A stretch of 41,330 nt of DNA. Origin: a virus. Location of the stretch: the IMG/VR virus record IMGVR_UViG_3300009155_000106, positions 1 to 41,330 of that record. The stretch is one strand, 5' to 3'. Both the position numbers and the translations under genes were made by a program. The notes beneath the pieces are model-generated. The model ran no database searches. It was not told where the DNA came from and was given only the letters and a program-made list of their open reading frames with translations. Of this stretch, positions 1,456 through 22,964 are shown piece by piece (positions within the stretch are counted from its first letter, which is position 1; the number at the start of each line of letters is the position of its first letter).

Positions 1456-1638
1456 TTAAATTAATCCCATGATTGTAAGAACTCTTTCATGAATCTGATC
1501 ATGTACCATTCCACCACGACCATGGATTGCATCATAATGTCTATCGTATTCTTCTTGGCGATGCTCAGGAATTTCTATATGATCATATTTTCCTTTAGCC
1601 TTCTTTGCTTCTGCTAATATTTCCTTGAATGTTTTCAT
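1456..1638 (-). CDS. Small putative internal head protein
   Basis: This 60-aa hypothetical protein begins MKTFKEILAE/AKK. The first ten residues closely resemble the capsid-targeting sequence of T4 internal proteins (MKTYQEFIAE/A), and LAE/A fits the prohead-protease consensus (I/L)-x-E. I infer that it is packed into the prohead and trimmed after residue 10. The remainder is short, charged and rich in His, Glu and Asp, with no recognisable domain. A GAGGAT ribosome-binding site and a late-type CATAAATA lie just upstream. It is the last gene of the minus-strand late block. Confidence 0.7.
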   Translation of the reverse strand: MKTFKEILAEAKKAKGKYDHIEIPEHRQEEYDRHYDAIHGRGGMVHDQIHERVLTIMGLI

Positions 1639-1655
1639 GTCTGAATCCTCTTTTG

Positions 1656-1663
1656 TATTTATG
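1656..1663 (-). promoter_or_regulatory. Late promoter (CATAAATA variant)
   Basis: CATAAATA on the minus strand differs from the T4 late consensus TATAAATA at the first base. It overlaps the stop codon of the upstream lipoprotein gene. It is followed by GAGGAT and the ATG of the 60-aa gene, giving an expected leader of roughly 10-15 bases. Confidence 0.55.
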
Positions 1664-1958
1664 ATCCAGTTATTCCTGGAGGTGCTTCAGATGAATCGTC
1701 GATTTCATTATTATTTTTATCATCACCACCATCATTCTTGAATGCGAGATATAAAGCAAAACAGATTAATGTTCCATAGAATAGAACAGCATACCAATTG
1801 ATATTTATTGGTTTTAACAATGGACCCGCTGCAATTGCTCCATGTTCATCTTTGCTACTGCCATCTGCTGGTGCGGTGTGTTGAACCTCTGGAATTATTT
1901 TACATGACGCAAGACAGAACCAAAGAAATAATAATGTAAAGAATCCAATTTTCTTCAT
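1659..1958 (-). CDS. Small lipoprotein with one TM helix, possible lysis protein
   Basis: The 99-aa protein starts with a lipoprotein signal: two Lys, a hydrophobic stretch and the lipobox LASC with Cys19. A second hydrophobic helix lies at about residues 54-73 and the tail is acidic. The gene overlaps the preceding putative holin gene by ATGA, so the two are probably translated together. That pairing suggests an outer-membrane lysis component such as a spanin. The internal transmembrane helix is not typical of an o-spanin, so the role remains an inference. Lipid attachment implies a diderm host or at least a host with lipoprotein processing. Confidence 0.65.
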   Translation of the reverse strand: MKKIGFFTLLFLWFCLASCKIIPEVQHTAPADGSSKDEHGAIAAGPLLKPININWYAVLFYGTLICFALYLAFKNDGGDDKNNNEIDDSSEAPPGITGS

Positions 1959-2389
1959 GACTTGTTTCCTGCGGCCGCGGATCCAAAGTAAAATCCGATG
2001 ATGCTGATCAGAACTTGTCTACTCTCACTGGTAAACAGAAACCCATTCACAACTTGGAATATCTTGTGGTTTGTCTCTGGAATCAGACCAAACATGAGTT
2101 CTGGATTGGTCTGGTCAACTTCAACTACGGTTGGAATGCCAAAGAATGGAAGAATGAATGGCGCAATGATTGTACCAAACAAAATTACAAGGACGATGAA
2201 TCGTCGTACAACCTTTCCAGCATCAACTGGAACTCTCTGTGCTGCGAGATTCTGATTGTTTGTAGTCTGTGTATTTACTTCAATGAGTCGCTTGAAATTC
2301 TCTGCTTCCGCAGCACGCTTCTCGGCAATATAACGAAACAAGAATCCTACGAAAGATCCACCAATGAGTGAAATGATTTCTGGTGTCAT
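1955..2389 (-). CDS. Three-TM membrane protein, putative holin
   Basis: This 144-aa protein has hydrophobic segments near the N-terminus (residues 5-20), in the middle (about 64-86, RRFIVLVILFGTIIAPFIL) and near the C-terminus (about 126-140, ending GFYFGS). Between the first two is a charged, probably coiled region. The three-helix layout and the pairing with a lipoprotein gene resemble phage holins of the three-TM type. It overlaps its upstream and downstream neighbours by ATGA, so it belongs to a tightly coupled operon. The holin assignment rests on architecture and context only; a general membrane protein of unknown function is the alternative. Confidence 0.6.
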   Translation of the reverse strand: MTPEIISLIGGSFVGFLFRYIAEKRAAEAENFKRLIEVNTQTTNNQNLAAQRVPVDAGKVVRRFIVLVILFGTIIAPFILPFFGIPTVVEVDQTNPELMFGLIPETNHKIFQVVNGFLFTSESRQVLISIIGFYFGSAAAGNKS

Positions 2390-3783
2390 GCTTGGTTTCC
2401 TAGATTAACACTATCCAAAAACTTTCTAGTCAAGTTTCTGCGATGTGGTTTTGATTTTCTAGTGGATAGAGGAGCAACTGCCACATCATCTGGAGCAGGA
2501 CCACCGAGATTATAACCCATACCAGAGATTGCTCCACTGGATGCGGTCATCATTCCACCACCTTCATCCTCTTGAATTTGTTGTTTATTTTTCTTTCTTG
2601 ATTTTGCAGCTGCACTTTGAGCAGCATTTGCGGAAGTGAAAGATGACTCGACAAATTTAACAGGTTCTATTCCAGGAACATTTGAAACCTTTCCTTCTCC
2701 CATGCTGTAATCAACCTTACCTGTTTCTGGATTCACTGGGTGAAGATCAGAAGGTGTTCTTTGTGTTATATTGACTATGTGTTTTCTTGCTTCATCTATA
2801 TGAGCATGACCTTCTAGCATTTTGTGTATTGCCAAGCCATTATTTCCAATGTATTTTAAATGCCCAAGTATTCTATTCTTTTCAGAAGAACTTTTTGCAT
2901 TTGCTAGTTTCATTGTTGCAAAATGCATAAGAAGGTCTGTTGATCTTCTAACTGGTCGATCTTTTGTTGAGAAATAATTAAAATCGCCTCGTTGGAAAGC
3001 ATTATTAAATTGCTTGAAAAACAAGTATCTATGCCCTTGTTTGTTTGATGGATCCCTATGTCTCGCTATGCCTTTAACAACACGGGCAACATCTGGATCT
3101 GAAAATATTTTCTTTGCTTCAGAAATACTGCGGTGGATTGATGCGACTTCCTCTGGCTTGGGAGAATGTATTTTTCCTTTTGTGCCAAGATATGGGAGGA
3201 AAAGATCCTTTGTCTCCATATGTCTGAGATCTGGAGCAGTATCTATTTTCTTACCAGTATTGGAATCAAAAACCGTATGAACCGCAACTCCATACTTGAC
3301 AGACTTTCTTGGTTTCTTGTAACTGAGTATATTACCCTTTAACAGATTTGAATGATCTGGATGCTGTAATAAAGTATCTCCTTGATACATAACATCTTCT
3401 GGCATCTCTGGGTGATGTGCTAATCCCAACCCTGACATCAAATGTGGTGTTAGATGACCTCTTCCTTGTTTACCATATGTCTGTTCTATTTCTTCTGGAG
3501 AACTGACCCATGGATTGTTTTCTTCATTTTCACCCTTGTATTTTACAGCACCATTTTTGATTAAAATAGAAACACCACCATCTGCCTTATCACTCATTGA
3601 TCCCTGCGTTGAAAGATTTTGAGAAATATTTAATCCATTCTCAAGGTGTGTGATTGCCTCATGTGGTTTTCCAAGAATTGCTCTTTCAACCACATGAGGT
3701 AAATGCATTATAGTTTCAGTTTTATTTTCTTTTGCCTCTTGCAATAGTGCAATTTTTTTAAATGCTTCTAAGATTGTTATCAT
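2386..3783 (-). CDS. Putative internal head protein with KxDG ligase-like motif
   Basis: The 465-aa protein begins MITILEAFKKIALLQE/A, where LQE/A is a likely prohead-protease site. Residues 60-150 resemble a family of unknown function common in marine T4-like phages: a K-x-D-G motif (KADGG at 66-70) followed by a YQGD motif near 133-136. KxDG is the nucleotidyl-lysine motif of DNA/RNA ligases and capping enzymes, but the other ligase motifs are not certain here. Residues 330-465 are polar and basic. ATGA overlaps link it to the 125-aa gene upstream and the putative holin gene downstream. I am confident of the gene and of its phage family, and unsure of any ligase activity. Confidence 0.65.
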   Translation of the reverse strand: MITILEAFKKIALLQEAKENKTETIMHLPHVVERAILGKPHEAITHLENGLNISQNLSTQGSMSDKADGGVSILIKNGAVKYKGENEENNPWVSSPEEIEQTYGKQGRGHLTPHLMSGLGLAHHPEMPEDVMYQGDTLLQHPDHSNLLKGNILSYKKPRKSVKYGVAVHTVFDSNTGKKIDTAPDLRHMETKDLFLPYLGTKGKIHSPKPEEVASIHRSISEAKKIFSDPDVARVVKGIARHRDPSNKQGHRYLFFKQFNNAFQRGDFNYFSTKDRPVRRSTDLLMHFATMKLANAKSSSEKNRILGHLKYIGNNGLAIHKMLEGHAHIDEARKHIVNITQRTPSDLHPVNPETGKVDYSMGEGKVSNVPGIEPVKFVESSFTSANAAQSAAAKSRKKNKQQIQEDEGGGMMTASSGAISGMGYNLGGPAPDDVAVAPLSTRKSKPHRRNLTRKFLDSVNLGNQA

Positions 3784-4157
3784 TTGATTCTCTGTAATAG
3801 TTTTGAAATTCTATGATCTGGATTTATTCCGTGAATGTCTGCTTCTGGTATCTCATATGGAAGATATTGAAGATATTCTAAAAAAGACTTAAGGGGTGCA
3901 TGTAAATCCTTATTTAATTTGTAAAATAGGATCCGCACACACCCCTCAACACCAAATACATTTTGAAGAATTATGATATGATTTAAAATAAGTCTTTCTT
4001 TTAAGTGACCATACTTTTTATATTTTATTAGCAATCTCTTGATGTATTTTATTCTGGAAAGATCTTCTTTAAATTCTTCTATACCAGAACAATGAGGATT
4101 ATTATACATCTTCATTGCGAACATTACAAAATTATGTGGACTTAATTTTTCCTTCAT
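3780..4157 (-). CDS. Conserved T4-like hypothetical protein
   Basis: This 125-aa protein has a pattern I recognise from T4-like phages of aquatic bacteria: NFVMFAMKMYNNP, then EEFKEDLSRIKYIKRLL and LILNHIIILQNVFG, ending in a helix with FLEYLQYLP. Predicted secondary structure is mostly helical. No catalytic motif or membrane helix is visible and the function is unknown. It starts 18 bases after the stop of the 216-aa gene and overlaps the next gene by ATGA. Confidence 0.7.
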   Translation of the reverse strand: MKEKLSPHNFVMFAMKMYNNPHCSGIEEFKEDLSRIKYIKRLLIKYKKYGHLKERLILNHIIILQNVFGVEGCVRILFYKLNKDLHAPLKSFLEYLQYLPYEIPEADIHGINPDHRISKLLQRIK

Positions 4158-4175
4158 ATTATAAACTATTGTAAA

Positions 4176-4826
4176 TTATCGTCTCTTACCTTTTACAGAT
4201 TTCAATTTTCTCTCCGTGGAATTTTTGAACTTTGAACCTTCTCTTTGAGTATCACCGTGCGGATCCACAATATTCTCTGCTTTTGTAGATTCTCTGCCTT
4301 CCATGACTTTCTTGATGGTATTGATTCGCTGAGATCTTCTGTCAGCAGAGAGAAGATTCTCTGTCAATGTATCTCCAGCACCCATTTTACCTTCAAGTTT
4401 AAATCCACCATCCACTTTGATTACTCTAATTTGGAGATTGTATTTTTGAAGATCTTGTCCCGTATCAAATCCTTTTGAGAGATCTGTTGTTGGAGTAACT
4501 CCAAATGCGCTTCCACCTCTAGTTACAATATAATCATTCACAGCAGCAAGAGGTGTTGATGCGTTGAATGGGAAATCAAGATTCAAATGATTCAATCTTG
4601 CTTTCAATTGAACTACTTCATATTGAGGATTCAATGTGACTCTTCTAAATGCGTTGGCAATAAACACATTTATTCTATGAAGTCCTTCATTTGTATCGGG
4701 ATTGAGTCTATCCTTTCCCTGTACCGTTTCAGCATCAACTGGTCCTAACGCTCCATTATATTCCTGCGATTGGGAATTTCCTATTGATGATGGATATGCT
4801 GTGCTAAATTCGTTTAAGTTTCTCAT
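4176..4826 (-). CDS. Putative virion protein of unknown function
   Basis: I do not recognise a functional domain in this 216-aa protein. Residues 49-90 (around INVFIANAFRRVTLNPQYE) look like a compact alpha/beta core, and the last 40 residues are basic and end RKLKSVKGKRR. A clear GAGGA ribosome-binding site lies 7 bases before the ATG, and a CATAAATA late-type promoter lies upstream, which argues for late expression. An early LNE occurs at residues 4-6, but the N-terminus is not otherwise like the capsid-targeting leader. Confidence 0.65.
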   Translation of the reverse strand: MRNLNEFSTAYPSSIGNSQSQEYNGALGPVDAETVQGKDRLNPDTNEGLHRINVFIANAFRRVTLNPQYEVVQLKARLNHLNLDFPFNASTPLAAVNDYIVTRGGSAFGVTPTTDLSKGFDTGQDLQKYNLQIRVIKVDGGFKLEGKMGAGDTLTENLLSADRRSQRINTIKKVMEGRESTKAENIVDPHGDTQREGSKFKNSTERKLKSVKGKRR

Positions 4827-4847
4827 GGGTGTATTCCTCTACTATTG

Positions 4848-4855
4848 TATTTATG
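4848..4855 (-). promoter_or_regulatory. Late promoter (CATAAATA variant)
   Basis: CATAAATA on the minus strand is followed about 7 bases later by a GAGGA ribosome-binding site and then the ATG of the 216-aa gene. It is the second example of the C-initial variant, seen also at 1656-1663. Confidence 0.55.
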
Positions 4856-4865
4856 TTTTTTCATA

Positions 4866-6725
4866 TTATCTCTTCTTTGTCTTTTTACTAGGTTTCTTGC
4901 TAGATTTGGTATTTGATTTTTCAGACTTAGATGATTTTCCTTCGCGTGCTCTTAGAACCAAATAAGTAGCGTATCTGTATTTTGCTTCTTTATCCGAATC
5001 TGGTTTGCCCTTAATAGATTTTATACCTTTGACACTTTTAGCAATTCTATCTCTTTTTGATCTCTCTTTCCCTGTCATAGTTCCTTTATTACTCTTGTTA
5101 ACTATTTCTTCCTTTATTGCGTGTTTTGCTCTGGCATATGCTTCCTGTAATGGAGTCATTGTGTTTTCCGAGATTGGGACACAGTTTGGTACTTGTCTTC
5201 CGTTTTTCATTTTAGTTCCTTTTGCAGTGTAACCTTTCCAGCAGGCCTCATTGAGTGATATTTTGTGATTTAGCATTGATGTTTTCGTTTCATATGATTC
5301 GTTTGTTCCACATCTACATCCCCATACACGGAGTGCTGCATTTATCTTACTCTTTGGATCATTCGCCGTCTTTGAACTGGTATTTCGTCTCTTCATTCCA
5401 CACATACGAGCGCAGAATGATTTTCTTCTGGCTTGAGTCTTGCCAGAGAGTTTACCAAACCCACCCTTGCGCTTGGCTTCATCCTTGGTTTCAATGCCAG
5501 CATGAATACCTTGACGATGTGCTTCCTTACGGGACAACCCACCCTCTGGATGGTTCTTGCCCTTTACAAAACCTTTATATGGTTTCTTGGATTCTGTGAG
5601 ATTTTGATCACATCCGCAGTTGTTTTCTTTCAGTTGTGCTTTTAATCCATGATGTTCACCAACACTGATAACCTTTCCTGTGTCTGGATGTCTTACTCGT
5701 GAATTCAAATGATCTCTCAATATCTCTCTGACTGCTTGTTCATCCATACTACCATCAGCAGTATGAGCCCACTTTGGTTTTTGGTGAGTATCTATAGATC
5801 CATCTGGATAAATTGTTCCATTTGAGAGATTAACTTCTGTATGTGATTCTTGTGTGAATTCTGGAGCAGTGCCATGTTTTGGATTCGGAACCTTTGTTCT
5901 CATACTAAATCTAATTGTACCATCTTTTGTGTTGTGATTTGTAGTTACACTAATTTTACCAGTAGATATTCGTGTATCAAAACCACTTGGAATCCAAGAT
6001 CCAGAGTGGTTGTGACTCGAAACATATTGTGAATCTCCACCAATTGCTGCTTGATGTTTTCCCATTCTATCACGCATCATTGCTCTTAACTCAGCAATTC
6101 TATCGCGTATTTTCTTAGTTTCGTTATTTTCTTCTTCTTTTGCTTCATTTAATGCTTGTTCATACATTTCTCGTAGTCCTTTAAAGTCCATTAATCTTGT
6201 TAATACACTTAAATGTTGAGGGTTTAGGAATGGATATCTTGATACATGCAAACCAGTGATATTTTTTAGTTCTGCGGCCACTTCTGCTCTATGTCTCGTG
6301 GAAGTTCCACCAGCACCAGTTGGATATCCCGTTAGGTTTTTTCCTTTTGAATCTATTCCAGTGACGATTAAACCAGTTGCATTAGATTCTCCACCTTTTT
6401 TGAGGAAATGGCGAACAACAACATTCAGCGCATGACCTGGGTATTGTGATTGAATATCCTGAACGAATGCCAACGCACCATGAACTCTATCATGGTGATC
6501 CATGGATGTGATATCACCAGATTGAATTGTTCTTAGCAATCTTGCTCTATATTCTTTTGGAGATTCTCCACTATGAATTTGATCTTCGTTGATATTCTTA
6601 TCACACCCACAGTCGTTTTGATTTGATTCATTCATTTTTTTCTTCCCTGGTTTATATTTATTTTTAGATCCATCTTGTGCAGTCCATTTCTCTTTGAACC
6701 ATCTGCGCAAATCCTCAGAAATCAT
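4866..6725 (-). CDS. Modular Cys-containing basic protein, possible polyprotein
   Basis: The 619-aa protein is a string of modules. Residues 1-30 (EDLRRWFKEKW, KPGKKK) match a small viral domain of the DUF5872 kind. NDCGCDKNINE (37-47) recurs as NNCGCDQNLTE (368-378). Residues 395-473 (GGLSRKEAHR, ARRKSFCARMCGMK, CRCG) form a basic Cys module found in many large phages. ACWKGYTAKG to NCVPI (494-517) is another, and the tail from 545 is Lys/Ser-rich. Sites of the prohead-protease type (LNE/A at 192-194, LNE/A at 491-493, LQE/A at 526-528) fall near module borders. Molecular function is unknown; nucleic-acid binding fits the charge. It overlaps the upstream gene by ATGA and has an AAGGAT ribosome-binding site. 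Confidence 0.7.
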   Translation of the reverse strand: MISEDLRRWFKEKWTAQDGSKNKYKPGKKKMNESNQNDCGCDKNINEDQIHSGESPKEYRARLLRTIQSGDITSMDHHDRVHGALAFVQDIQSQYPGHALNVVVRHFLKKGGESNATGLIVTGIDSKGKNLTGYPTGAGGTSTRHRAEVAAELKNITGLHVSRYPFLNPQHLSVLTRLMDFKGLREMYEQALNEAKEEENNETKKIRDRIAELRAMMRDRMGKHQAAIGGDSQYVSSHNHSGSWIPSGFDTRISTGKISVTTNHNTKDGTIRFSMRTKVPNPKHGTAPEFTQESHTEVNLSNGTIYPDGSIDTHQKPKWAHTADGSMDEQAVREILRDHLNSRVRHPDTGKVISVGEHHGLKAQLKENNCGCDQNLTESKKPYKGFVKGKNHPEGGLSRKEAHRQGIHAGIETKDEAKRKGGFGKLSGKTQARRKSFCARMCGMKRRNTSSKTANDPKSKINAALRVWGCRCGTNESYETKTSMLNHKISLNEACWKGYTAKGTKMKNGRQVPNCVPISENTMTPLQEAYARAKHAIKEEIVNKSNKGTMTGKERSKRDRIAKSVKGIKSIKGKPDSDKEAKYRYATYLVLRAREGKSSKSEKSNTKSSKKPSKKTKKR

Positions 6726-7354
6726 TTTAAATCCTTTATTTGTTGGGATAACTTGGTCTGTACAATGTTTCTTGTGTGTAGTAGTTCAATTTTAATTACC
6801 CCCTCATTATTCACCGCATATTCACTATCTGTTTCTCCACACCACTCCATCATTATAAATCCACTCTTTGCTCCACCATAGAATAAGGGAAGTGCCATAA
6901 AGTAATCAACGCTACCCAAGTCAAGTGTATTCTTAAAGTAACTTGGTTTCTCTTCCGATGTCTTGTATAGTTGTGGTTGATTGGTTTCCAACTTATCCAT
7001 CAGTGCAGAAAACATAGTGACTAGTAAAAGTTTCTTCTCGTTGCTAGATAATCCATTCTTCAACGATTCATGAGTGGTTGAAAGTTTATACATGGAAATT
7101 CCATCTATAAAATATTCACCATTATGAAACTGAACAATCTGTGCTCTTCCAGCATGAGTCTTTACACGAAGTTCTGTAAGAAATTCATGAATCTGAGAAT
7201 GAACTTCCCAGTTTATCTCGTCATGTTTCTTTAGTTTTATAGCACGATTACTCTTCTCTTTCATCTTTCCTGACACATAAGCAACTATTGCAATCCCAAG
7301 TGTTAGTATTGCTTCAACCCAGAATGGGAACGAAATGTCTGGCATCAAATCCAT
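6722..7354 (-). CDS. Membrane-anchored protein of unknown function, GAF-like
   Basis: This 210-aa protein has one N-terminal membrane helix (about residues 8-28) and then a soluble domain. The sequence RAQIVQFHNGEYFIDGISM (about 79-97) and the later ALPLFYGGAKSGFIMMEW are reminiscent of GAF-type sensor domains, but the match is weak and the assignment is only suggested. An AAGGAAG ribosome-binding site precedes the ATG. It lies directly downstream of the 1019-aa gene and overlaps the next gene by ATGA. A cytoplasmic domain tethered to the inner membrane is the likely topology. Confidence 0.6.
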   Translation of the reverse strand: MDLMPDISFPFWVEAILTLGIAIVAYVSGKMKEKSNRAIKLKKHDEINWEVHSQIHEFLTELRVKTHAGRAQIVQFHNGEYFIDGISMYKLSTTHESLKNGLSSNEKKLLLVTMFSALMDKLETNQPQLYKTSEEKPSYFKNTLDLGSVDYFMALPLFYGGAKSGFIMMEWCGETDSEYAVNNEGVIKIELLHTRNIVQTKLSQQIKDLK

Positions 7355-7363
7355 ATAACTTCC

Positions 7364-10300
7364 TTAATTATCCGCGCGGTTTTCAGATTTATCTCTTACT
7401 CGGAGATTGTGTTTTCCATTGTTCTGAGGATTACCATCTTTGTGATCTACATCTTTACCATCACCTTTATGAACCTTACCCAATTTTGCCATCAATCTTC
7501 TCGCCATAACACGCTTGGAACGATTCTTTCTTTGTTCTGGACGAGAATGATAATTGCGATATTCTGATTTATAGTCTCTTTCATCCAGATATTCTTCTGA
7601 TAGAGGAGATTCTATATTTCCATTGGGGGTATAGTTATATGGGACTTCAACTGGAATTTCAAATTGTTTTCCATTGATGAACACAATATTCTTTGTTGTA
7701 CTTGCAGAATCTGCAAGTTCAGTCCAATCAACTATCGGTTGAGTTGTCTCTGGGTCTATTGTATCTTCAAAGAATTGATACAATTTAAAGGAGTCTTCTC
7801 CAATGTATTGAAATGCATCCTTGAGATAGTTAACTGCTTCTTCTGGTGTTCTTGGATCTGGGGGAGTTACTTTCTTCATTTCACTGTTAGTAGATTCCAG
7901 AAAAAGAGAAACAAGTTTTCTTCCAGTAATATTATTCATGTTTTCTGTTAGATATGCACGAATAACAGATCTATATGAATATTGACGGAAGTCTTCACCA
8001 AGAGTGATCTTCTGCCCTTGTTTCTTCTTTCTATCCTTAAACTCTGCCCACTTCTTCTTGACATCGCTGGTTTCTACTGCGGAAGACTTAAACTTCATCT
8101 GAAACTTGACTTTGCCCAACAGTTTATCAGCATATTTCATATCAACTTTAGTCATCTTAAGATCAGTACCATCTCTATTAGCACTAAGAATATGAGTAGC
8201 AATTGCAGGATCACCTTCTTTGAATTTACTAGCACCAGTGATCAATGAATATATGAATGCCGATGCAAGTTTCTTATCTCCATTCAGAATGTTATTTAAC
8301 ATCTCTGTTGCTTTATCGTGAAGTTTTTCTCTTCTTTCAACTTCTTTATCTTCTCCTGCTTTTTCTGCACCTTGTTGGTAAAGAGAAACTGGACCTGCTT
8401 GTGTTCTTGGATTTCCACCGAGTTCATTTTCAAAGAACTTGATGAATCCATCAATCTCTTTTTTGGTTGCTGGATCAAGTTTGTCGCCAAGAGTATTCAT
8501 GGACCATTTAAGATGTGTGATTGTTTCCGCAGGACCACCAGAACTCAACTGAGATTCACCAATCTTCTGTGACAATGCAGCAACAATATTTCCATCTCCA
8601 TCCACTAACAGTAAATCTGATTTTGGAGTATTATCCCTGACTCCATTATCAATTGCTTCCTTTGAAAGTGTAGTTATGCTCTTCAGTCTACCTGTATGCT
8701 TAAGATATAATCCACCGTATTGTTTGATGATCTGTTCTGCTGCTCTTTGACAAGATGGCATGAACGATTCATTGTTATTTGCAAGAACCGCATCAACATC
8801 TTTCTTGTCAATAAGACCTTTCTTTACCATCTGCTCTGGAGATAATCCAAGTGCGCTATTGACTGCAAATGCAATTCCAGATTCCATTGCTGTTGCATCA
8901 TGCGAAGTTGCATATGTATCTTTCTTTGATGCTTTCTTGGATGCTGCAATCTTCTGTGGTGGTGGATTCAATGCAGCTCCAGCTGAAGTCTGCTTTCCAC
9001 TCTTCTTTTCTTTTGATTCTTTCTTTTCTTTCTTTCCTTCTTTTTCTCCACCAGCATCTTTTTGAAGACCGAATAATCGAATAGAAGTATCGGTGTTTCT
9101 GAATCCTTTATCACCGACAAATTTCTTAAGAGTAGAGAGACTCGCCTTGTCTGCGTCTAAAAGAATGGTATGATCTGCGCGAAGTGATTGTTTATCAACC
9201 AATTCAACATCACCTTTTTTATTTTTAACGGCGTATACTTCACCTTTAACATTTCCAGATTTGAGTTTTTCTTCTCTTTTACCTCTGACTTGTCTTTGAG
9301 TCATAGTATTGTTTCTTTTTCTCTTTGCCTTATCAGCAGAATCAGGAGGTTGACGATTTGTTTTCTTGGATTTCATCTTTGTCGCTTCTGATAAGAAGTT
9401 AGACATGAACATTTGAACTACATCAAATGAAGAATTTAAACTTTTAAGTCTGTCAGATTCACCTTTAATCACTTGTGGCATAATTCTCTTTACCATATTT
9501 GTAACTAGTTTCTTTCTTCTCGCCAAATTACGGTCAATCGTCACTCTTTGAGAATACGGAACCTTTTTCCAGTTTCTCTTTCCTGAAATCTTCTTTCTTA
9601 ACTGAGAGATGATTTCATTCTTTGCACGAACTTTAAGTTGTGTAAGATTCTTTCTTCTCTTTGCTCTGCTTCTGCGTACTATTTTTCGTCTTGATGATGT
9701 TCTTCTTGCTGCTTTCGCAAGTTTCATGCGAGTTACGGCAGAAGTTTCTTCATTAATGCCAGCAACATGGGGATGTAGAGATTCCATATATTCAACTGCG
9801 TCTTCTCTCGTCATATGTGGAGGAAGCATTGAATGTACCAAATCTACATTCTTTTCCATTATTGCTTTACGCATTTTGGATCCAGAAATTTTCTCAATCT
9901 TCATTTTTCCTGTAGTTTTGACAAAATCTTTTGGGGATATGGTTTGCAATCCGTCATCAGAATCTGCATCTCTCGGGATTCCTATTATATGAAAATTTTC
10001 TGGTTTTATATTCGTAAAATCAATAACTTTACCCTGTCGATCAACTGTTCGTTTCCCCATATACTCTTTTAGTTTCTCGTATTGGACTATTCGTTTTCCA
10101 CCCGCAAGTATAGTTAATTCAGTAGCACCGTTGTCGTGAGCGTGCTGTGCGTGACCAAAAACACCAGGTAATTTTAAAGGAGCAGTAACAGTAATATTAT
10201 CTGTATCAAAGATTTTACGCATGAATTGATCTTTGAGCTCTGCTGGAATTGGATTCTTTGAACCAGGACCATCAAAAGTTGGTGTTCCGTAAATATGAAA

Positions 10301-11513: not shown

Positions 11514-11541
11514 ATTATAACCACAATCAAATAAATGTCAA
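11514..11541 (-). promoter_or_regulatory. Sigma-70-type promoter of the exonuclease cassette
   Basis: On the minus strand TTGACA (11536-11541) and TATAAT (11514-11519) are separated by 16 bp, a perfect match to both boxes. The -10 box touches the ATG at 11513, and an in-frame GTG lies exactly 6 bases after the box. It sits inside a block that otherwise uses late promoters. Confidence 0.75.
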
Positions 11542-15428: not shown

Positions 15429-16086
15429 TTTCAAAACTCATATTTTCGTTGTAGTGGTGCGTGAAATTCTTTAACCAATTATTATTTAGTCCTTTTGGAT
15501 CGTTGGTTGCTCCAATAGTTGGTGAATATTTAGATTGTAGATAATGTGGGAATCCATTATATTGTGCCTGTGTAGTGGAATCCATACCTTCCCATTCACC
15601 TTTCCTCTTCATGAGAATTGATGATGCCCATCCCGCTTGTTTATCTAGGGTCTGTCCAGGTTTTCCTACTGCATTTTTATGAAGAACTCCAAATTCTTTT
15701 CCAGCTCTACCATTCTCAGTACTGCGTATAGCATAGAGCATTGACATGGTTTCATGGTCGTTTTCATCTATGTGATTTCTCTTTGCAGCATTTAAAATCA
15801 CTTCGTGTTCATCTCCATGTTTAGTGGCCATTCCCTTCATGAAATTATCATGTTTCACTTTAATAGGATCTACCTTTGATTTTTCTTTCTTTTCCTCTTC
15901 CTCCTTTTCTGTAGATTCAACAGGTGGTTGGGTTGCGGTTGGTTGTTCTTGATGTGGTGATGTCACCACAGGTGATATCAACTTTCCGAGAACAGCACCA
16001 CCTGTAAAAACTCCAAGTCCTGCTGCTGCTATAGCTAATTTGTCAACAAGAGATCCTTCGTTAATGTATTGTTTAAATGTTATCAT
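15418..16086 (-). CDS. Muramidase-like protein with capsid-targeting leader and TM helix
   Basis: The 222-aa protein has three parts. Residues 1-10 (MITFKQYINE/G) match the capsid-targeting leader. Residues 13-41 form a hydrophobic helix (LAIAAAGLGVFTGGAVLG). After a Pro/Glu/Lys linker, residues 115-205 match a lytic-transglycosylase-like family: AIRSTENGRAGKEFGV with likely catalytic Glu124, and later FPHYLQSKYSP and NDPKGLNNNW. I infer an enzyme packed in the head that is delivered with the DNA and opens peptidoglycan locally, or a membrane-tethered lysis enzyme. Its ATG follows the stop of the repeat protein by one base. Confidence 0.72.
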   Translation of the reverse strand: MITFKQYINEGSLVDKLAIAAAGLGVFTGGAVLGKLISPVVTSPHQEQPTATQPPVESTEKEEEEKKEKSKVDPIKVKHDNFMKGMATKHGDEHEVILNAAKRNHIDENDHETMSMLYAIRSTENGRAGKEFGVLHKNAVGKPGQTLDKQAGWASSILMKRKGEWEGMDSTTQAQYNGFPHYLQSKYSPTIGATNDPKGLNNNWLKNFTHHYNENMSFENVQ

Positions 16087-16087
16087 T

Positions 16088-17527
16088 TTATTTTGTTAAT
16101 TTTCTTCTTGTTATTTTAGTTTTATGAAATCTTGTGTCTATTAGTTTTTTTACAGATTCGTGTGGGGATACAGCAGCATGGGAAAAATAGTTAAATTTAG
16201 GATGATTTGCTGCTACCAATGCTACAGATTCGTGAGGTGAGTTTAATCCTACATTTATATGGTTGTTTGAAGTACCAAATGCAGGATGCTTCACTGCTGC
16301 CATTGCTACAGATTCGTGTGGTGATTTTAATGCAAATTCCATTTCATAATTCTCCCATGTATTGTTCTTTTGCTGCGCAAATGCAGGATGATTTACTGCT
16401 GCCAATGCTACAGATTCGTGTCGTGATTCTACTGTATCTTCTAAGCGTCTGACAGCATCAAATCTAGGATGCTTCACTGCTGCCGTTGCTACAGATTCGT
16501 ATGGTGATTCTAATGCAGGTAACCAATGTGTGTCAGGATTAAATTTATGATGCTTCACTGCTGCCATTGCTACAGATTCGTGTGGTGATTCTAATGCATT
16601 AGACATATTATCACCGCCAGAAAAAAAGTTAGGATGGTTAAATGCTGCCATTGCTACAGATTCGTATGGTGATTTTAATGCAGACCTTATATGCCTTTCA
16701 GAATTATTTTTAGGATCTTTTACCAATTTTAATAAATGTTGTTCTGATGCTTTTGGATCAGTAAGATCAACTGATAATTGTATATCAAATCTACTTTGAT
16801 GATTAAATTCAGGCAAAGGTCTATCATGAAACGAAAGCTTAGGCAAGTTAGTTTCAGATGAATTAATTGGTTTATTTTCTTTATTCATGAACTGCTCAGG
16901 ATGCCATTGATACTTTTCTCCTTTATATAATGGTTTTTTTGGAAGTAAAACCATTAAAGGTCCGCTTTTATTATAATGCGTAAACCTGTTGTTACTTTTT
17001 GAAGAAGTACACCAATTTGTACCTCCACCAAGTGTGCATGAAGCTGATTTCGTGTGTGGTTGCACTACTTTCCAATGTTCATTTTCTCCATGCAGTGTAA
17101 ACTCGCCTGTAGGAATATCTTTAGTTGTGGTTTCGGGATTATGTTTTTGTGCAATGTTAAATAACTCAGTTGGATTATTTACCTTATCTAAATTCATTTT
17201 ATGCGCATCTTTATGTTCTTCAAATGTATTTAAATTATCTTTTATGGTAGATTTTAAATCTTCAAGATGAGGAATATTACCCTTTACAACTTGCTTCAAT
17301 GCCCATCTTTGATGGTGTAATGGCATATCATGTATACCCAATGATCTTGTTATGAAATCTGTTTTGTGTTCAGTTTGTTGATCTGGTGGTATCTTTGAAT
17401 TATCATAAGGAATTTCATAATTCTTAAGAATCTTATCACCATGTTGATTGACAAATTGATGAAGTTCTTTACCTTCAAGTAACATAGACAAATTAGTTTC
17501 AATTAGATATTCTTTAAATGTTATCAT
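16088..17527 (-). CDS. HEAT-like repeat protein with capsid-targeting leader
   Basis: The 479-aa protein starts MITFKEYLIE/T, a capsid-targeting-type leader; a second LLE/G follows at 16-18. Residues 150-222 (HWKVVQPHTKSASCTLGGG, NWCTSS, YQWHPEQFMNKENKPI) match a domain I recognise from other phage and bacterial repeat proteins, function unknown. Residues 283-466 hold seven copies of SPHESVAMAAVKHPxF at 27-34 residue spacing, probably stacked helical hairpins of HEAT/ARM type for protein binding. A TATAAT-like box lies 15 bases before the ATG but lacks a good -35. The target is unknown. Confidence 0.72.
   Translation of the reverse strand: MITFKEYLIETNLSMLLEGKELHQFVNQHGDKILKNYEIPYDNSKIPPDQQTEHKTDFITRSLGIHDMPLHHQRWALKQVVKGNIPHLEDLKSTIKDNLNTFEEHKDAHKMNLDKVNNPTELFNIAQKHNPETTTKDIPTGEFTLHGENEHWKVVQPHTKSASCTLGGGTNWCTSSKSNNRFTHYNKSGPLMVLLPKKPLYKGEKYQWHPEQFMNKENKPINSSETNLPKLSFHDRPLPEFNHQSRFDIQLSVDLTDPKASEQHLLKLVKDPKNNSERHIRSALKSPYESVAMAAFNHPNFFSGGDNMSNALESPHESVAMAAVKHHKFNPDTHWLPALESPYESVATAAVKHPRFDAVRRLEDTVESRHESVALAAVNHPAFAQQKNNTWENYEMEFALKSPHESVAMAAVKHPAFGTSNNHINVGLNSPHESVALVAANHPKFNYFSHAAVSPHESVKKLIDTRFHKTKITRRKLTK
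16130..16681 (-). repeat. Seven tandem repeats inside the repeat-protein gene
   Basis: The DNA coding for the SPHESVAMAAVKHP unit recurs seven times at about 80-100 base spacing, with several copies nearly identical, for example around 16290, 16480 and 16560. This favours recent expansion by recombination. Confidence 0.75.
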
Positions 17528-17603: not shown

Positions 17604-17921
17604 TTATTTGTTTTTCCATCGGTGCTTTCCAAATTTTCGGTTATCCCAAGGATTAATTAGTCTTCCATATTTATCAAAATATTTTATCTTTGACTGTGAC
17701 ACTGGTTCGGACTTTGGTGTTCTATCTGAGTTTGGGTTTTTAACTGGCATCAGACGATAATCTAAATCTCCCTTTGTGAATTTTTCCTGAGCAGATGGTT
17801 CCTTGATTCCTTTATAGGGAGAAAATGGACCATTTGGACCAAATAACACACCAAGATCTTTACCACCTGGTTCAAATTTTGCTTCTGCAATTAACGACAA
17901 TATTTGTTTAAAGTTTTTCAT
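17604..17921 (-). CDS. Small putative internal head protein
   Basis: The 105-aa protein begins MKNFKQILSLIAE/AKF and then has LGVLFGPNGPFSPYKG. This N-terminal 45 residues is a paralogue of the start of the 316-aa protein encoded at 19075-20025 (MKKFKQILLLIAE, then FGKLFGPRGKYSPN), and the similarity extends to the DNA. IAE/A is a good prohead-protease site. The rest is basic and polar with no known domain. It overlaps the 386-aa gene by ATGA. Confidence 0.7.
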   Translation of the reverse strand: MKNFKQILSLIAEAKFEPGGKDLGVLFGPNGPFSPYKGIKEPSAQEKFTKGDLDYRLMPVKNPNSDRTPKSEPVSQSKIKYFDKYGRLINPWDNRKFGKHRWKNK

Positions 17922-19078
17922 CTTTTTATGAACTCCACCATGTGTCGGTTTATATTTGTTTCTGGTATTATTGGTTGAATAGAAATCGAAGATGGGTTTT
18001 TCTTAAACTCATTCATTACATTTTGAGGTGCTTCAGCTTCATATGTGGATAATACATGTCCAATAGCACTCTTGACTGAGTTTCTATTCTTTCCTCTAAA
18101 ATGTGAATGTGTTCCAATTCTTCTTATCAAATCTTCATTTCCAAAAATCTGATCGTGTATTAGATTTTTAACTCTTGCAAGTTTATTCTCATCCAGATTT
18201 TCATGTTTTGCATTAGCAGTCAATATTCTGTAGATATGAAATCTACTCAAGGCCTGACCAGCAGAGATCTCTTGCTTAGACATGTCACCTAATTCACCAA
18301 AATGTATTGGAGCTGAATCAATCATGGATCGAGTCGCTAAAATGGCATCTTTTTTGGTATTCTCAACTAAAAAATCAGAAGAGGAATATACTAGAGATTC
18401 CTTTACATCCTGAGATTCAATATGCTTCTGTAGAATACCCATAAGTTTTTCATCTCCAGTACTAGCTATTCTCAACATTTTTTCTGGAACACCAGGTTTA
18501 GTTGAATCCAAGTGACCAGTATCAAAATCAACTATTCTTGCATAAGATAAAGCAACTCCATGCGGATCAGTTGCTTCTATTGTGCCATTTCTAATAAGAT
18601 GTCTGACTCTTGAATACACCTTCTGTGCTGTTGGATGCCAGTTATGAATAGGTCTATTTCTAGAATCTGTATGGTTATAACCACCCCTTGGTATTTCGCT
18701 ACTAACTCTCCACTTAAGCCAATCTGCTTGATTACGCAACTTTACATCTTTAGGCAATTTTTTGATATAATCTGGAAACTGCGTTTTACCAGGCTCTAAA
18801 AGTCCATTTCCAATATATTCTGCTCCAATGCGAGGGATAGATGTTTCAAAACTTGTCATAGCATTTGCTGCTCGTTGATTTCTAACAGCTGTAAATTTTA
18901 AAAATTCAGAATCTAGATTTTCTAGTGCTTTATCAGATAATGTGCGGTTATAAGCTATTTGATTTTGCAATCTAATAATATGTCCATTAAGCGGTTCTTG
19001 AAAAGCACTAAGCTTATTATAATTACGCAGGAATGCTTTTTTTCCAGATTCGGTAATGTATTGTCGAAATGATTTCAT
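17918..19078 (-). CDS. Putative internal head protein
   Basis: This 386-aa protein begins MKSFRQYITE/S, a clear capsid-targeting-type leader with ITE as the cleavage motif. The body is alpha/beta and soluble without a recognised catalytic motif. EDLIRRIGTHSHF near residue 310 resembles a segment of the 182-aa protein at 14883-15428. ATGA overlaps join it to both neighbours, so three leader-bearing genes (316, 386 and 105 aa) form one translationally coupled unit downstream of a late promoter. Cargo function is unknown. Confidence 0.7.
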   Translation of the reverse strand: MKSFRQYITESGKKAFLRNYNKLSAFQEPLNGHIIRLQNQIAYNRTLSDKALENLDSEFLKFTAVRNQRAANAMTSFETSIPRIGAEYIGNGLLEPGKTQFPDYIKKLPKDVKLRNQADWLKWRVSSEIPRGGYNHTDSRNRPIHNWHPTAQKVYSRVRHLIRNGTIEATDPHGVALSYARIVDFDTGHLDSTKPGVPEKMLRIASTGDEKLMGILQKHIESQDVKESLVYSSSDFLVENTKKDAILATRSMIDSAPIHFGELGDMSKQEISAGQALSRFHIYRILTANAKHENLDENKLARVKNLIHDQIFGNEDLIRRIGTHSHFRGKNRNSVKSAIGHVLSTYEAEAPQNVMNEFKKNPSSISIQPIIPETNINRHMVEFIKR

Positions 19079-20025
19079 ACGAGTGATGGCATCCTTGGTC
19101 TTGTTGGTGCTTTTGGTCCTGTTGGTTGCTTTCCTGTTGGATTTTTTGGTTTTGGTGTCACTGGTTCATTACCACCACCACCTCCACCATCCACACCTGG
19201 CACATCTGGATGATTGATGGCCGTTGCCAATACTAATGGACTGCGTTTTGTACCAACCATTTGTTGTCCGCTATCTGGGTGTATATACCATGCATGTCCA
19301 GTCTTCTTTTCTAGATACTGAGTTAATTCTTTTATTTGACCTGCACCTGATATAAAAGTCTTTAAAGGGTAAAAGTGAGCTTTTAGAGTTATTTCTCCTG
19401 GAAAACTAGTGTCTTGAGAAGTATGTGATACTCTTGCATTACCAAATTTTTCGTCAATTGGCAATCCTTTAGAATTTAGATCAGTTATCTTATCTGCTAA
19501 TGTATCTAAATGAGAAGTAATCAAATTATGAGCAAATAGACCTCGTTCATATTTACTCGCTTTTCCACCAGTGGATTCATGATATTCACGAAGAGCAGCT
19601 GTTAATCTATCTGAATGTTTCATGAATCTTGGGCTAACAGCTTTCATCATTTCGCGAAGTTCACGATCATTCTCCATCATTCGCATCAAGTGTCCCTCGT
19701 GGTGCATATTGTTCGTGACAACTGGAAACGACCCTGTTGGTCTTTTTGCTGCTGATGGTTTCTTGGTTCTTGATGGTGTTGGTGTTGCTGGTGTTGGTTC
19801 TGATGGCATCTGAGGCCTCCGAATGTTACCACTTTTAATTCTTGCGAGATATGTTTCTTCTTTTCCAGGATTCCATGATGATTCTCCTGGAGCATTTTTG
19901 TCATTTGGAGAATATTTACCCCTTGGACCAAATAATTTACCAAAATCTAATTTACCAAAATTTTCACGATCTGGTCCATATCTTTCTTCTGCTATTAACA
20001 ATAATATTTGTTTAAACTTTTTCAT
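19075..20025 (-). CDS. Putative internal head protein
   Basis: I start the gene at the ATG at 20025, giving MKKFKQILLLIAE/E; the codon before it is TTG. The first 45 residues duplicate those of the 105-aa protein at 17604-17921. Residues 60-110 are Pro/Thr/Lys-rich, 110-240 are largely helical, and the last 50 are Gly/Pro-rich. No enzyme motif is visible. There is no ribosome-binding site, and TATAAATA ends exactly 6 bases before the ATG, which suggests a leaderless late transcript. The gene leads the coupled 316-386-105 set. Confidence 0.7.
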   Translation of the reverse strand: MKKFKQILLLIAEERYGPDRENFGKLDFGKLFGPRGKYSPNDKNAPGESSWNPGKEETYLARIKSGNIRRPQMPSEPTPATPTPSRTKKPSAAKRPTGSFPVVTNNMHHEGHLMRMMENDRELREMMKAVSPRFMKHSDRLTAALREYHESTGGKASKYERGLFAHNLITSHLDTLADKITDLNSKGLPIDEKFGNARVSHTSQDTSFPGEITLKAHFYPLKTFISGAGQIKELTQYLEKKTGHAWYIHPDSGQQMVGTKRSPLVLATAINHPDVPGVDGGGGGGNEPVTPKPKNPTGKQPTGPKAPTRPRMPSLV

Positions 20026-20104: not shown

Positions 20105-20293
20105 CTAGTGTTTCTTTCGCACTTTACGAATAAAATCCTCTGGGTGTGTAAAAAACACCGCAGGATCTATTTTATGTTTGCGCGATTCAAATTTGAGATA
20201 GTTTAAGAAAGCGGGGGTGCGGACTAGTTCCGCAGAATCCTCGGAGATCATTACCCGTCTAAGGTTTTCGGCAAAAGCCTTGTCTTTCTTCAT
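20105..20293 (-). CDS. Small hypothetical protein
   Basis: A 62-aa basic protein with no recognised domain, containing LVRTPAFLNYLKFESRKH and FFTHPEDFIRKVRKKH. It has a downstream hairpin and a possible promoter in the palindrome just upstream. There is a GGTGG directly before the ATG but the spacing is poor, so an internal start at codon 15 (MISED) or a leaderless start are possible. Moderate confidence that it is expressed. Confidence 0.5.
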   Translation of the reverse strand: MKKDKAFAENLRRVMISEDSAELVRTPAFLNYLKFESRKHKIDPAVFFTHPEDFIRKVRKKH

Positions 20294-20465: not shown

Positions 20466-20466
20466 T

Positions 20467-20474
20467 TATAAATA
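20467..20474 (+). promoter_or_regulatory. Late promoter TATAAATA upstream of a terminator
   Basis: A perfect plus-strand late element two bases after the stop of the 45-aa gene. The only thing between it and the terminator at 20508-20542 is about 60 bases, so it would give a very short transcript. Confidence 0.55.
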
Positions 20475-20507
20475 TTATTTCCACGGGATGGGAAAACGGG
20501 AAAGAAG

Positions 20508-20542
20508 AAGGGGAGTCGTAACAGACTCCCCTTTCTGTTTTT
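20508..20542 (+). terminator. Rho-independent terminator
   Basis: A 10-bp stem (20508-20517 with 20524-20533) with a 6-base loop is followed by a T-rich tract on the plus strand. It ends the 45-aa gene transcript, and its T-tract runs into the next late promoter. Confidence 0.8.
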
Positions 20543-20549
20543 ATAAATA
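20542..20549 (+). promoter_or_regulatory. Late promoter TATAAATA
   Basis: A perfect plus-strand late element followed by AAAGG and the ATG of the 95-aa gene 17 bases downstream. Confidence 0.7.
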
Positions 20550-20566
20550 ATAAAAAAGGTAATTAT

Positions 20567-20854
20567 ATGAATCTAAAAGAATATTACAAGAATCGTTTAA
20601 ATGAATTGATGGAACAACAGGCCAGACTGCCCAGTCTTGAAAAAGATACTATTGATCGTAGTTATGATTCCATAGAAAATATTAGAGCGGGTGCAGAGTT
20701 TGGAGCTAATACACCAGCAAACAGTGCTGATAAGAAGATTAAAGTGTATACAGGCGGATTGGTTCAAAAACCGCTCACTCCACAGTATGGCACACCTAAT
20801 GCCAAAGCACGCAATAAGAGTAGTGGAAATCCTACATTCACTCCTGGACTTTAA
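20567..20854 (+). CDS. Small putative internal head protein
   Basis: The 95-aa protein begins MNLKEYYKNRLNELME/QQA. LNE and LME are both plausible prohead-protease sites and the leader fits the capsid-targeting plan. The rest is polar and rich in Asn, Lys, Pro and Thr, with no domain seen. It has its own late promoter and AAGG ribosome-binding site. Its 3' end overlaps the convergent RuvC-like gene by 17 bases. Confidence 0.65.
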   Translation: MNLKEYYKNRLNELMEQQARLPSLEKDTIDRSYDSIENIRAGAEFGANTPANSADKKIKVYTGGLVQKPLTPQYGTPNAKARNKSSGNPTFTPGL

Positions 20855-21395
20855 GTTGATTCCAGAATAATTTACAGATAGCAAAAGCGTCCACAATATC
20901 TGTAACGGGATTACCAACAAGAGTCTTATTAGGGGTGATGATCTTATGAAGATCCACCCCTGTCTCTTTTACGAAGGTATCGTACATTTTTGGTTTATCG
21001 GCATTTCCTTTTTCAGTATAGAACTTCTTGACTCTTGTTGGTTCTAGAATATCAACAGGAATACCCGCTTGGTAAAGTTTGTACTTGAGAATGCCTGTAT
21101 TCTCAGCAAGATTAAAAACCCTTCCTGTGGCATTGTAGGCGTATCCTTCGATTGCCACCTGATCGGATCCAATTACGGTTCTCATTACCCAATCAGAAAT
21201 TGAGTCATATCTCTCACAATCACCTTTATAGTCTATAAACATCTCTCCGTGAATATTATTCAGAAAGGTAGTTGCGTACTTCTTAGTATCGGTGAGGAAA
21301 TAAAAGGAGCAATTCTTGAAATTAAATTCCTTCTTTGTGTCAAATACACAAAGAGCTGGACCGTTTAGAGAATAATCAATAGCTGAAATAATCAT
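20838..21395 (-). CDS. RuvC-like Holliday-junction resolvase
   Basis: The 185-aa protein has an RNase H-type fold with the acidic residues of RuvC-like nucleases: D7 in ISAIDYSLNGPAL, E83 in VAIEGYAYNATG, and D166/D169 in NPVTDIVDAFAI. Such proteins resolve branched DNA before packaging, the job done in T4 by the unrelated gp49. It is a lone minus-strand gene between plus-strand late genes, so it may rely on its own promoter, which I do not see clearly. The length is normal for the family. Confidence 0.82.
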   Translation of the reverse strand: MIISAIDYSLNGPALCVFDTKKEFNFKNCSFYFLTDTKKYATTFLNNIHGEMFIDYKGDCERYDSISDWVMRTVIGSDQVAIEGYAYNATGRVFNLAENTGILKYKLYQAGIPVDILEPTRVKKFYTEKGNADKPKMYDTFVKETGVDLHKIITPNKTLVGNPVTDIVDAFAICKLFWNQLKVQE

Positions 21396-21398
21396 CGT

Positions 21399-21406
21399 TA
21401 TAAATA
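21399..21406 (+). promoter_or_regulatory. Late promoter TATAAATA
   Basis: A perfect plus-strand late element upstream of the 511-aa gene, followed by AGGA and the ATG at 21429. It lies immediately beside the divergent start of the resolvase gene. Confidence 0.7.
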
Positions 21407-21428
21407 TTTAGGATAGGAACAAAAACAC

Positions 21429-22964
21429 ATGAGCGGATTCAACAACAATTATTTCAATAGACATCTCATTAATGATATGAGAAATGCCCTAAACTCGGTC
21501 TTCATTGAAGAAGAAAAAACTTCTGCGAGAAATCTTGAACAATTTAGAGAGCGACAAGCTAGCGATAGAGCAGATCGTATAGCTACAGGTAAGGCAAATA
21601 ATGCTGCCAAGGATGCTGCTAAGGCTGAGCGAGCAGCTGCGAGAACAGCTGCAGAAAAACCAGCACCAGCACCAGCACCAGCATCAGCACCAACTGCACC
21701 AGCAGCTGCACCAGCAGCTGCGGTGCGTGGGCCCAACGCAGGGAAGATAAACACAGATCCGACTAATGTGACAATGGGTGACAATGGACGGCCGCGGTCT
21801 ATTAATCTAGATGGTTCTTTTAATATTTCACCAGAAGCACAGGTACAAGCAGCAGCAAACAGAACCCCAGGCCCTACTGAAACCCCGCCTAGAGAAAGAT
21901 ATGTGAATCGGAATAGTCCTGAAGGAAGAGTTGAAGCATCAATTACTGCTGGAAAAGAACCTGATCTGCCGCGAGCTCCAGGTAACAGAATCATAACCAA
22001 TGACAGGGGAGTTCAAGATCCAGACTCTGTAGGATATGCTGCTGGTCAAAGAGCATTTGATGCAAGTATAGCAGCTGATGCAAGAGCATCAGCAAAGGCA
22101 GCAGCAGATGCAAGAGCAGCAGCAGATGATACTGAGGAACTTGAGGATTCAATTCCTAACAACGGAGGGTTGCTGACACAGTTAAGAGGCGCAATAAGGG
22201 GACAAAACAATGATCGGCAGGAGGCAGGAGCAGATGCTAGAGCACCAAAACCAGCCACACCAGCACCCACAGCACCCACAGCAGCACAAACAACTGATAC
22301 GCCAGCACCCACAGCACCCACAGCACCCATAGCAGCAAGAAGTTCTCCACAAATTAATACATCGGGAATTCCAAGTAGGTTACGAAATGCATTTGAAAGA
22401 TTAAATCAGTTAGATGCACCAGAAGCACCCACAGCACCCACAGCACCCACAACTGGTACGCCAGCACAACCAACAGCATCAAGCGGGGATACAGTGAATG
22501 GTGTTAGACAATCTTGGCAAGATTCACCACCCAGACCAAGTCAAAATATACGGCAAGATCCAAATAATGGCAGAAATGATGTAAACAACTTTAATCGCAT
22601 ACCAAAGCCGCGACCATTTAATCTTGTAGACCCATCAACCCAGCGTCAGGATGAAAGAGATGTGCAACAAAGAGATTCTCAATTCTCTAAATCAACTGCA
22701 CCAAAACCAGCAGGTTCAACACCATCAGTACAACCACCAGTAAAGTACGGAGAAGGTCGATCTAATTCAGATAAATTTGTCCCACCACAAAATCCAAGAT
22801 CATCAAGCGGGATGGCTGACAACGATTTACGAATGTGGAATGGAACAATAGGTCCAAATGGGGGACAACGAGCAAACCCAGCAGGTTCAACCAAATCTAC
22901 AGTAAAACCAGCAAGTACAGTGAAACCTAAAACCCCTCCTCAGACATTCTTTCCAATGAGATAA
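21429..22964 (+). CDS. Ala/Pro-rich low-complexity virion protein
   Basis: This 511-aa protein has an N-terminal helix ending SVFIEE/E, a possible prohead-protease site, then a charged coiled region (about 29-75). Ala/Pro/Thr repeats follow (APAPAPAS, repeated APTAP) at about 78-95, 275-300 and 335-350. The rest is Asn/Arg/Pro-rich and probably disordered. The 382/374-aa and 471-aa proteins on the other strand have a similar build, so all may be head-interior or scaffold-like proteins. It has its own late promoter. No enzymatic function is visible. Confidence 0.65.
   Translation: MSGFNNNYFNRHLINDMRNALNSVFIEEEKTSARNLEQFRERQASDRADRIATGKANNAAKDAAKAERAAARTAAEKPAPAPAPASAPTAPAAAPAAAVRGPNAGKINTDPTNVTMGDNGRPRSINLDGSFNISPEAQVQAAANRTPGPTETPPRERYVNRNSPEGRVEASITAGKEPDLPRAPGNRIITNDRGVQDPDSVGYAAGQRAFDASIAADARASAKAAADARAAADDTEELEDSIPNNGGLLTQLRGAIRGQNNDRQEAGADARAPKPATPAPTAPTAAQTTDTPAPTAPTAPIAARSSPQINTSGIPSRLRNAFERLNQLDAPEAPTAPTAPTTGTPAQPTASSGDTVNGVRQSWQDSPPRPSQNIRQDPNNGRNDVNNFNRIPKPRPFNLVDPSTQRQDERDVQQRDSQFSKSTAPKPAGSTPSVQPPVKYGEGRSNSDKFVPPQNPRSSSGMADNDLRMWNGTIGPNGGQRANPAGSTKSTVKPASTVKPKTPPQTFFPMR
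22240..22460 (+). repeat. Tandem ACC/GCA-rich coding repeats
   Basis: Repeated CACCCACAGCA units near 22255-22330 and 22425-22450 encode APTAP runs. They are prone to slippage and should vary in number between relatives. Confidence 0.65.

Follow-up and report, generated by a model that had tools for sequence, protein, structure and literature searches.

Why should about a dozen largely unrelated proteins, encoded close together in one phage, all begin in the same way? The question is raised by IMG/VR virus record IMGVR_UViG_3300009155_000106, here called the window, a 41,330-base fragment of a T4-like phage genome. A DNA-level search of a phage collection found no near match to it among annotated phages, and its DNA polymerase shares about 46-47% identity with those of marine T4-like phages. 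Replication and metabolism genes occupy 27-41 kb (a polymerase in two parts, UvsX, a helicase, a primase, ThyX and ribonucleotide reductase). Adjoining them, at 1.4-23.7 kb, is a block of mostly unannotated genes whose candidate cargo has almost no matches in Pfam, NCBIfam, PADLOC or PHROGs, and it is here that the shared N-terminus is found. I propose that this leader is a capsid targeting sequence (CTS) of the T4 type, and that a wide environmental group of T4-like phages tags many unrelated enzymes and inhibitors with it, most plausibly for use in the first minutes of infection. I put the probability of this at roughly 0.83. The roles that seem most plausible for the tagged cargo are anti-restriction, host takeover and nucleic-acid repair.

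Every N-terminus quoted in the initial annotation of this DNA was located, all within a 20-kb block. Its estimate of about a dozen leader proteins agrees with some 12 by a loose rule, though only 4 keep the strict register of the T4 internal protein IPIII. The cases are these, the slash marking the presumed cut:

1456-1638, minus strand: 60-aa protein, MKTFKEILAE/A, in the strict IPIII register
2386-3783, minus strand: 465-aa leader protein, MITILEAFKKIALLQE/A, DUF6267-like by hhalign, with KxDG and EGxV...K motifs
4176-4826, minus strand: 216-aa protein, short Alt-like leader MRNLNE/F, added to the earlier list
11538-12662, minus strand: leader protein from an internal ATG, MSDLHKTIRSMITE/Q, body rich in Ala, Thr and Ser
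12689-14104, minus strand: 471-aa protein, weaker leader MKRYSYQQQVDRIKIQLNE/G
14883-15428, minus strand: leader protein MYNDVFKSLNE/S (compare the virion protein gp38 of S-SCSM1, MAMGPFKSLNE/N)
15418-16086, minus strand: 222-aa leader protein MITFKQYINE/G, followed by a hydrophobic stretch
16088-17527, minus strand: 479-aa leader protein MITFKEYLIE/T, with a PHROG 17056-type central domain and repeats at the C-terminus
17604-17921, minus strand: 105-aa leader protein MKNFKQILSLIAE/A
17918-19078, minus strand: 386-aa leader protein MKSFRQYITE/S, orphan body
19075-20025, minus strand: 316-aa leader protein MKKFKQILLLIAE/E, with TATAAATA just upstream
20105-20293, minus strand: 62-aa protein, candidate leader MKKDKAFAENLRRVMISE/D, added to the earlier list
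20567-20854, plus strand: 95-aa leader protein MNLKEYYKNRLNE/L, with TATAAATA just upstream

Three of these (11538-12662, 14883-15428 and 19075-20025) start slightly inside the longest frame. The 511-aa protein at 21429-22964, formerly counted as a weaker case, was rejected, its N-terminus being unconvincing.

How closely do these leaders follow T4? Suppressor mutagenesis of IPIII assigned residues 4 and 7 to targeting and residues 8 and 10 to processing (PMC9026906). All four positions are matched by MKTFKEILAE, MITFKQYINE, MITFKEYLIE and MKSFRQYITE, so that the comparison with T4 internal proteins made at the outset holds at the very residues defined by mutation. F4 together with I7 or Y7 is exact in these four. 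MKNFKQILSLIAE and MKKFKQILLLIAE have the same start with three additional residues ahead of the cut site, and the others are shifted; in an alignment of MITILEAFKKIALLQE with the leaders of its wider family, for instance, F8 is placed opposite F4 and E16 opposite E10. The leaders stand at the extreme N-terminus and are 10-19 residues long, as in IPI, IPII, IPIII and Alt, which likewise have an aromatic or hydrophobic residue at 4 and 7, an (I/L)-x-E cut site and unrelated bodies, in a T4-like phage. (I/L)-x-E is present in all accepted window leaders, and the residue after the cut (P1') is A, G, S or T in 8. A difference is that the first aromatic is F in the window and Y in T4, often FK in place of YQ. 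Alt itself has a six-residue leader cut at ITE-6 (PMC5694885), which MRNLNE/F resembles; homologs of that protein in two other contigs (G013 and L004) start with full leaders, MKKFKQILSKLAE/S and MSLFKKLLSRLVE/N. The method used to find leaders recovers IPII and IPIII from T4, and residues 1-34 of the 60-aa protein weakly match PHROG 2667, 'internal head protein' (E 0.043).

Could AT-rich phage N-termini give rise to such a pattern by chance or by composition? Residues 2-25 of each protein were shuffled, and the 26 genes of the block were compared with the 18 genes elsewhere in the window. The strict register was seen in 4 of the 26, where shuffled N-termini gave 0.01. A looser rule was satisfied by 12, and here chance has something to offer, about 2.4 matches being expected, which leaves some 9-10 of the 12 as probably genuine. 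Neither form was found in the 18 other genes, replication genes among them (0/18), so the leader is not equally frequent in early enzymes, an outcome that the initial annotation had said would count against it. For the strict set chance is refuted; for two or three loose cases it could still serve. As an account of the whole it is hardly credible, and the wider collection argues further against it.

That collection, IMG/VR, was scanned at the DNA level for M-K-x-F-K-x-(F/Y)-I-x-E, a pattern that gives a lower bound. At least 120 contigs matched, and 124 of the 130 matches listed start an open reading frame (ORF) of at least 40 aa. A control pattern in which F and E trade places, equal in composition, matched 56 contigs in the whole collection, and only 7 of those 56 matches open such an ORF. 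The reversed pattern occurs in none of 30 records, the leader pattern in 24 of the same 30. Matches of the MKLFKTYI.EN type, deep inside longer frames, were excluded, and a match in contig G010, MVDLSKFVEVKLNE, is a false positive, probably RegA. Once internal matches are removed, at least 113 tagged proteins are left, and with the leader cut off their bodies form at least 59 similarity clusters, a low count, since several families are chained together in the largest one. The pattern put no constraint on position 3, where 48 of the 59 cluster representatives listed have S or T, like the T of IPIII. The company the tag keeps is that of T4: a T4 core gene lies in the examined stretch of 70 of the 104 tagged contigs listed, and of 1 of 56 controls. 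One contig (L306 of G009) has seven leader genes in about 6 kb (3807-9422, minus strand), a denser cargo array than the window's, and at least one of them looks like an ADP-ribosyltransferase by eye (YHGS...GSGFYF).

If the leader is a CTS, the phages that carry it should also possess the machinery that removes it. The gp21-type protease (PF03420) was found in 7 of the 8 tagged contigs listed of at least 50 kb, against 3 of 10 controls; the window's relative G010 has a gp21-type S77 prohead protease as well. In most relatives the major capsid protein has an L-x-E cut site, of the form L-x-E/(A/S/T), in the same place as in T4: LTE/AEIGG in T4, LTE/APTQ in S-CREM2, LNE/TGAP in G010. These facts bear on a second alternative, in which the leader would be a helix that docks on some other phage complex, such as a membrane or replisome site, with (I/L)-x-E never cut. 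Cleavage is not readable from sequence alone, and the preference at P1' is modest, but the phages that carry the leader are T4-like, with gp21 and L-x-E capsid sites; it fits the T4 CTS as mapped by mutation, none of the window's replication proteins has it and, as described below, it is enriched in a virion proteome. I regard a docking helix as very improbable.

Small proteins of several phages contain a near-copy of the mature N-terminal arm of the capsid protein: T4 gp61.1, S-SM2 gp108 and proteins of contigs L081 and L191 (directly behind the leader). Also listed are two proteins detected in virions, S-CREM2 gp160 and S-SCSM1 gp97. In four isolates local scores against the same phage's own arm are 69-114, and shuffles reach at most 53. 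The isolates' genes are:

L333:467-631, minus strand: T4 gene 61.1, leader MKTFKEFIKE/D
L332:877-1305: S-SM2 gp108, capsid-arm copy
L336:25342-26235: S-CREM2 gp160, capsid-arm copy
L340:43121-43306: S-SCSM1 gp97, capsid-arm copy

Since gp61.1 of T4 combines a leader with an arm copy, it is predicted to be an internal protein. The copies perhaps tether the proteins to the shell or act as decoys for the protease.

Are tagged proteins actually found in phage particles? In the S-CREM2 paper 52 proteins are listed from virions, with a remark on enzymes that its authors were unable to explain (PMC10665884). Going by that list, a strict leader is present in 5 of the 52 and in 1 of the 167 other proteins (Fisher p 0.003); among non-structural virion proteins it is 5 of 28 (p 0.0002). 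The leader of gp154 was read directly from its N-terminus and counted beside the automatic list of N-termini. The proteins are:

gp6, SAM hydrolase of the SAM lyase family: MKDFDSFLEE, detected in virions
gp13: MKDLHSFLTE, detected in virions
gp14, kinase: MKRFDAFLTE, detected in virions
gp136: MQTFSMFFSE, detected in virions
gp154, cytidylyltransferase: MKNFSSFLTE/A, detected in virions
gp175, 55 aa: MNWLKNYLIE, not detected in virions

A further protein, gp12, has a shifted form of the leader, RFASFMAE/A; the depositors' label for it, 'Cas9', has no Pfam support. In the published S-SCSM1 data the NMNAT gp91 (MKSFLQFLKE/A) was detected in virions. The enrichment in S-CREM2 supports packaging, short of proof.

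What, then, does the tag carry? Behind it, in other tagged phages, stand recognizable enzymes: a SAM lyase (L117, Pfam E 2.4e-17, the family of S-CREM2 gp6, 2.3e-19), an adenylate kinase (3e-41), an HD_4 protein (3.6e-16) whose sequence motif is of the (p)ppGpp-hydrolase type, ART-PolyVal (9.7e-24), an ADP-ribosyltransferase exoenzyme (1.8e-15, in the 168-kb contig G002, which also has gp21), a CTP_transf_like body with Pfam support, an RNA_ligase body (1.7e-5, just under the cut-off) and DUF6267 (PF19782, 1.5e-102). The window's own 2386-3783 found no match in a direct Pfam scan, but hhalign joins it to an alignment of leader-bearing DUF6267 sequences (probability 94.7, E 6e-8). KxDG, EGxV and a downstream K are invariant in the family, this protein included, and the motifs suggest a ligase-type nucleotidyltransferase. 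Its AF2 model has a pTM of 0.61; a fold search found no PDB match below E 0.1, with ligases only among the weak matches, and by sequence neither DUF6267 nor two window proteins had a significant match in the PDB. The protein at 15418-16086 had looked by eye like a peptidoglycan hydrolase, an idea dropped for want of support; its single-sequence AF2 model is too poor to be meaningful.

The window's leader bodies have no similarity to one another save that 17604-17921 and 19075-20025 share a short stretch after the leader, so the description of them as unrelated needs that one correction. The leaders are found again at syntenic places in close relatives, and in L165 a leader similar to that of 20567-20854, MIDLIEHYKNILNE, adjoins RuvC. 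A close-range IMG/VR scan confirmed no relative for three bodies (2386-3783, 15418-16086 and 17918-19078), as expected of fast-changing anti-host cargo, yet equally uninformative. One more gene probably belongs to the cargo block:

7364-10423, minus strand: 1019-aa multidomain protein without a leader

It joins a cytidylyltransferase-like N-terminus, a basic stretch, a Melnitz_15-like part (534-782) and a C-terminal HNH. Related parts occur in phages Melnitz and C48C1 as proteins in their own right, with leaders, suggesting that genes of the block have fused. The body of one leader family (MQGFKTFLSE/MKGFKDFIDE ...EDYEAAIVIGW; L257:12203-13288 and L152:3993-5114) is fused inside it.

A third alternative accepts the prohead-targeting leader but holds that most tagged proteins of the block are structural, core or scaffold like T4 gp67, gp68 and IPIII, and are not injected effectors. 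IPIII does also support head assembly in T4 (PMC9026906), some tagged proteins lie among head and terminase genes (for example a 106-aa family encoded between genes for tail fibre and terminase), and there are some that imitate the N-terminal arm of the capsid protein. Against this stand the clear enzymes (SAM lyase, adenylate kinase, ADP-ribosyltransferases, HD hydrolase, CTP-transferase), and the three bodies without relatives fit arms-race cargo more than a conserved core, for the little they tell. I judge it improbable for most of the block. The original suggestion of a capsid-loaded effector system is thus partly upheld, in its CTS-type leader, in the S-CREM2 virion enrichment and in its diverse bodies, some of them plausible effectors of early infection, with the reservation that some tagged proteins may be head-core components.

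By analogy with T4, the sequence of events would run as follows. Cargo genes may be expressed late: TATAAATA, a box like the T4 late promoter, occurs 8 times in the window (2.9 expected), twice directly upstream of leader genes, as listed above. The leader would bind the prohead core, the cargo would become enclosed, the S77 protease would cut the leader off, and mature cargo would exit the head together with the DNA. What sequence shows directly is the tag with its residue pattern, how widely it is spread, the genes it stands among and its enrichment in one published virion proteome; packaging, cleavage, injection and host targets of the window's own proteins we infer.

Several observations weigh against the proposal. 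Several of the window's leaders fit only the loose rule, and chance may account for 2-3 of the 12. Enrichment for small residues at P1' is modest (23 of the 59 representatives listed, against 26%, p 0.017). Neither gp21 (PF03420) nor gp22 nor gp23 was found in the window, as expected of a 41-kb fragment. In the S-SCSM1 data as published, the strict leader protein gp30 went undetected in virions, and several virion proteins of that phage's own cargo block have a loose leader or none. The S-CREM2 authors warn that abundant proteins may co-purify (PMC10665884), and the tagged proteins detected in virions are those of S-CREM2 and S-SCSM1.

Two features lie outside the cargo block. At 35794-40006 two frames, of 493 and 383 aa, make up the DNA polymerase, and between them lie tRNA-Gln, tRNA-Leu and, by eye, a SpoU-like methyltransferase-like gene; the same two-part polymerase is annotated in S-CREM2. 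At 27568-28320 is a secreted-looking protein whose C-terminus has, by eye, two dockerin-like calcium repeats, unusual for a phage.

Identifying internal proteins by their leader is already known in T-even phages, where it has been done since 1994 (Repoila et al., as cited in PMC12373910). Those phages have at least ten leader proteins, of which Ip1-3 inhibit distinct GmrSD restriction enzymes (PMC12373910). Like the genes considered here, the T-even ip hotspot genes (Silas et al. 2025, PMC12373910) change fast and are recognized by a common leader, but that set is about ten, from coliphages, whereas the present one comes from uncultured phages and cyanophage relatives and holds other classes of cargo. 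In T4 itself such proteins are few and, Alt apart, mostly small and basic (IPI, IPII, IPIII and Alt, with gp61.1 a candidate, in 169 kb); the window has about 12 in one 20-kb block, of up to 479 aa, and, unlike in T4, many enzyme families are tagged across relatives. That this phage packages a much larger set than T4 is therefore plausible, with a strict count of 4-6.

P1 Dar and the head ejection proteins of SPN3US and phiKZ also use N-terminal signals to load many proteins for injection, and the phiKZ group also has an E-specific prohead protease. However, Dar N-termini have no consensus (PMC9024508), and in giant phages most propeptides are much longer, with A/S-x-E as the cut site (PMC5694885). 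Polyvalent proteins are proposed injected multidomain effectors and include ART-PolyVal, here found behind a leader, but they are recognized by domain architecture (Iyer et al. 2017, PMC5512222). The NMNAT, kinase and SAM hydrolase of cyanomyovirus virions (S-CREM2, S-SCSM1) are the same enzymes and carry the same leader; the two papers, in the text available, leave the packaging unexplained or ascribe it possibly to contamination, and do not mention the leader. What look new are the reach into uncultured and cyanophage T4-like viruses, the size of the repertoire, its enzyme content and the link to unexplained virion enzymes.

It is probable, though I hold the broader claim less firmly, that in environmental T4-like phages one short capsid-import tag is a general, exchangeable delivery code set on dozens of unrelated enzyme families (SAM lyases, ligase-like DUF6267, ADP-ribosyltransferases, adenylate kinase and alarmone-hydrolase-like HD proteins among them), that it makes the injected effector repertoire of uncultured phages readable from N-termini alone, and that it explains the puzzling enzymes of cyanophage virions. 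The set also offers candidate leaders with which proteins might be loaded into T4-like heads, for example MITFKQYINEG, MKNFKQILSLIAEA and MITILEAFKKIALLQEA. If the proposal is true, the recurrence of NMNAT-like enzymes, kinases and SAM lyases in cyanophage virions would be accounted for, and a tag of ten residues would predict injected proteins, so that anti-defence and host-takeover proteins could be listed from metagenomes without culture.

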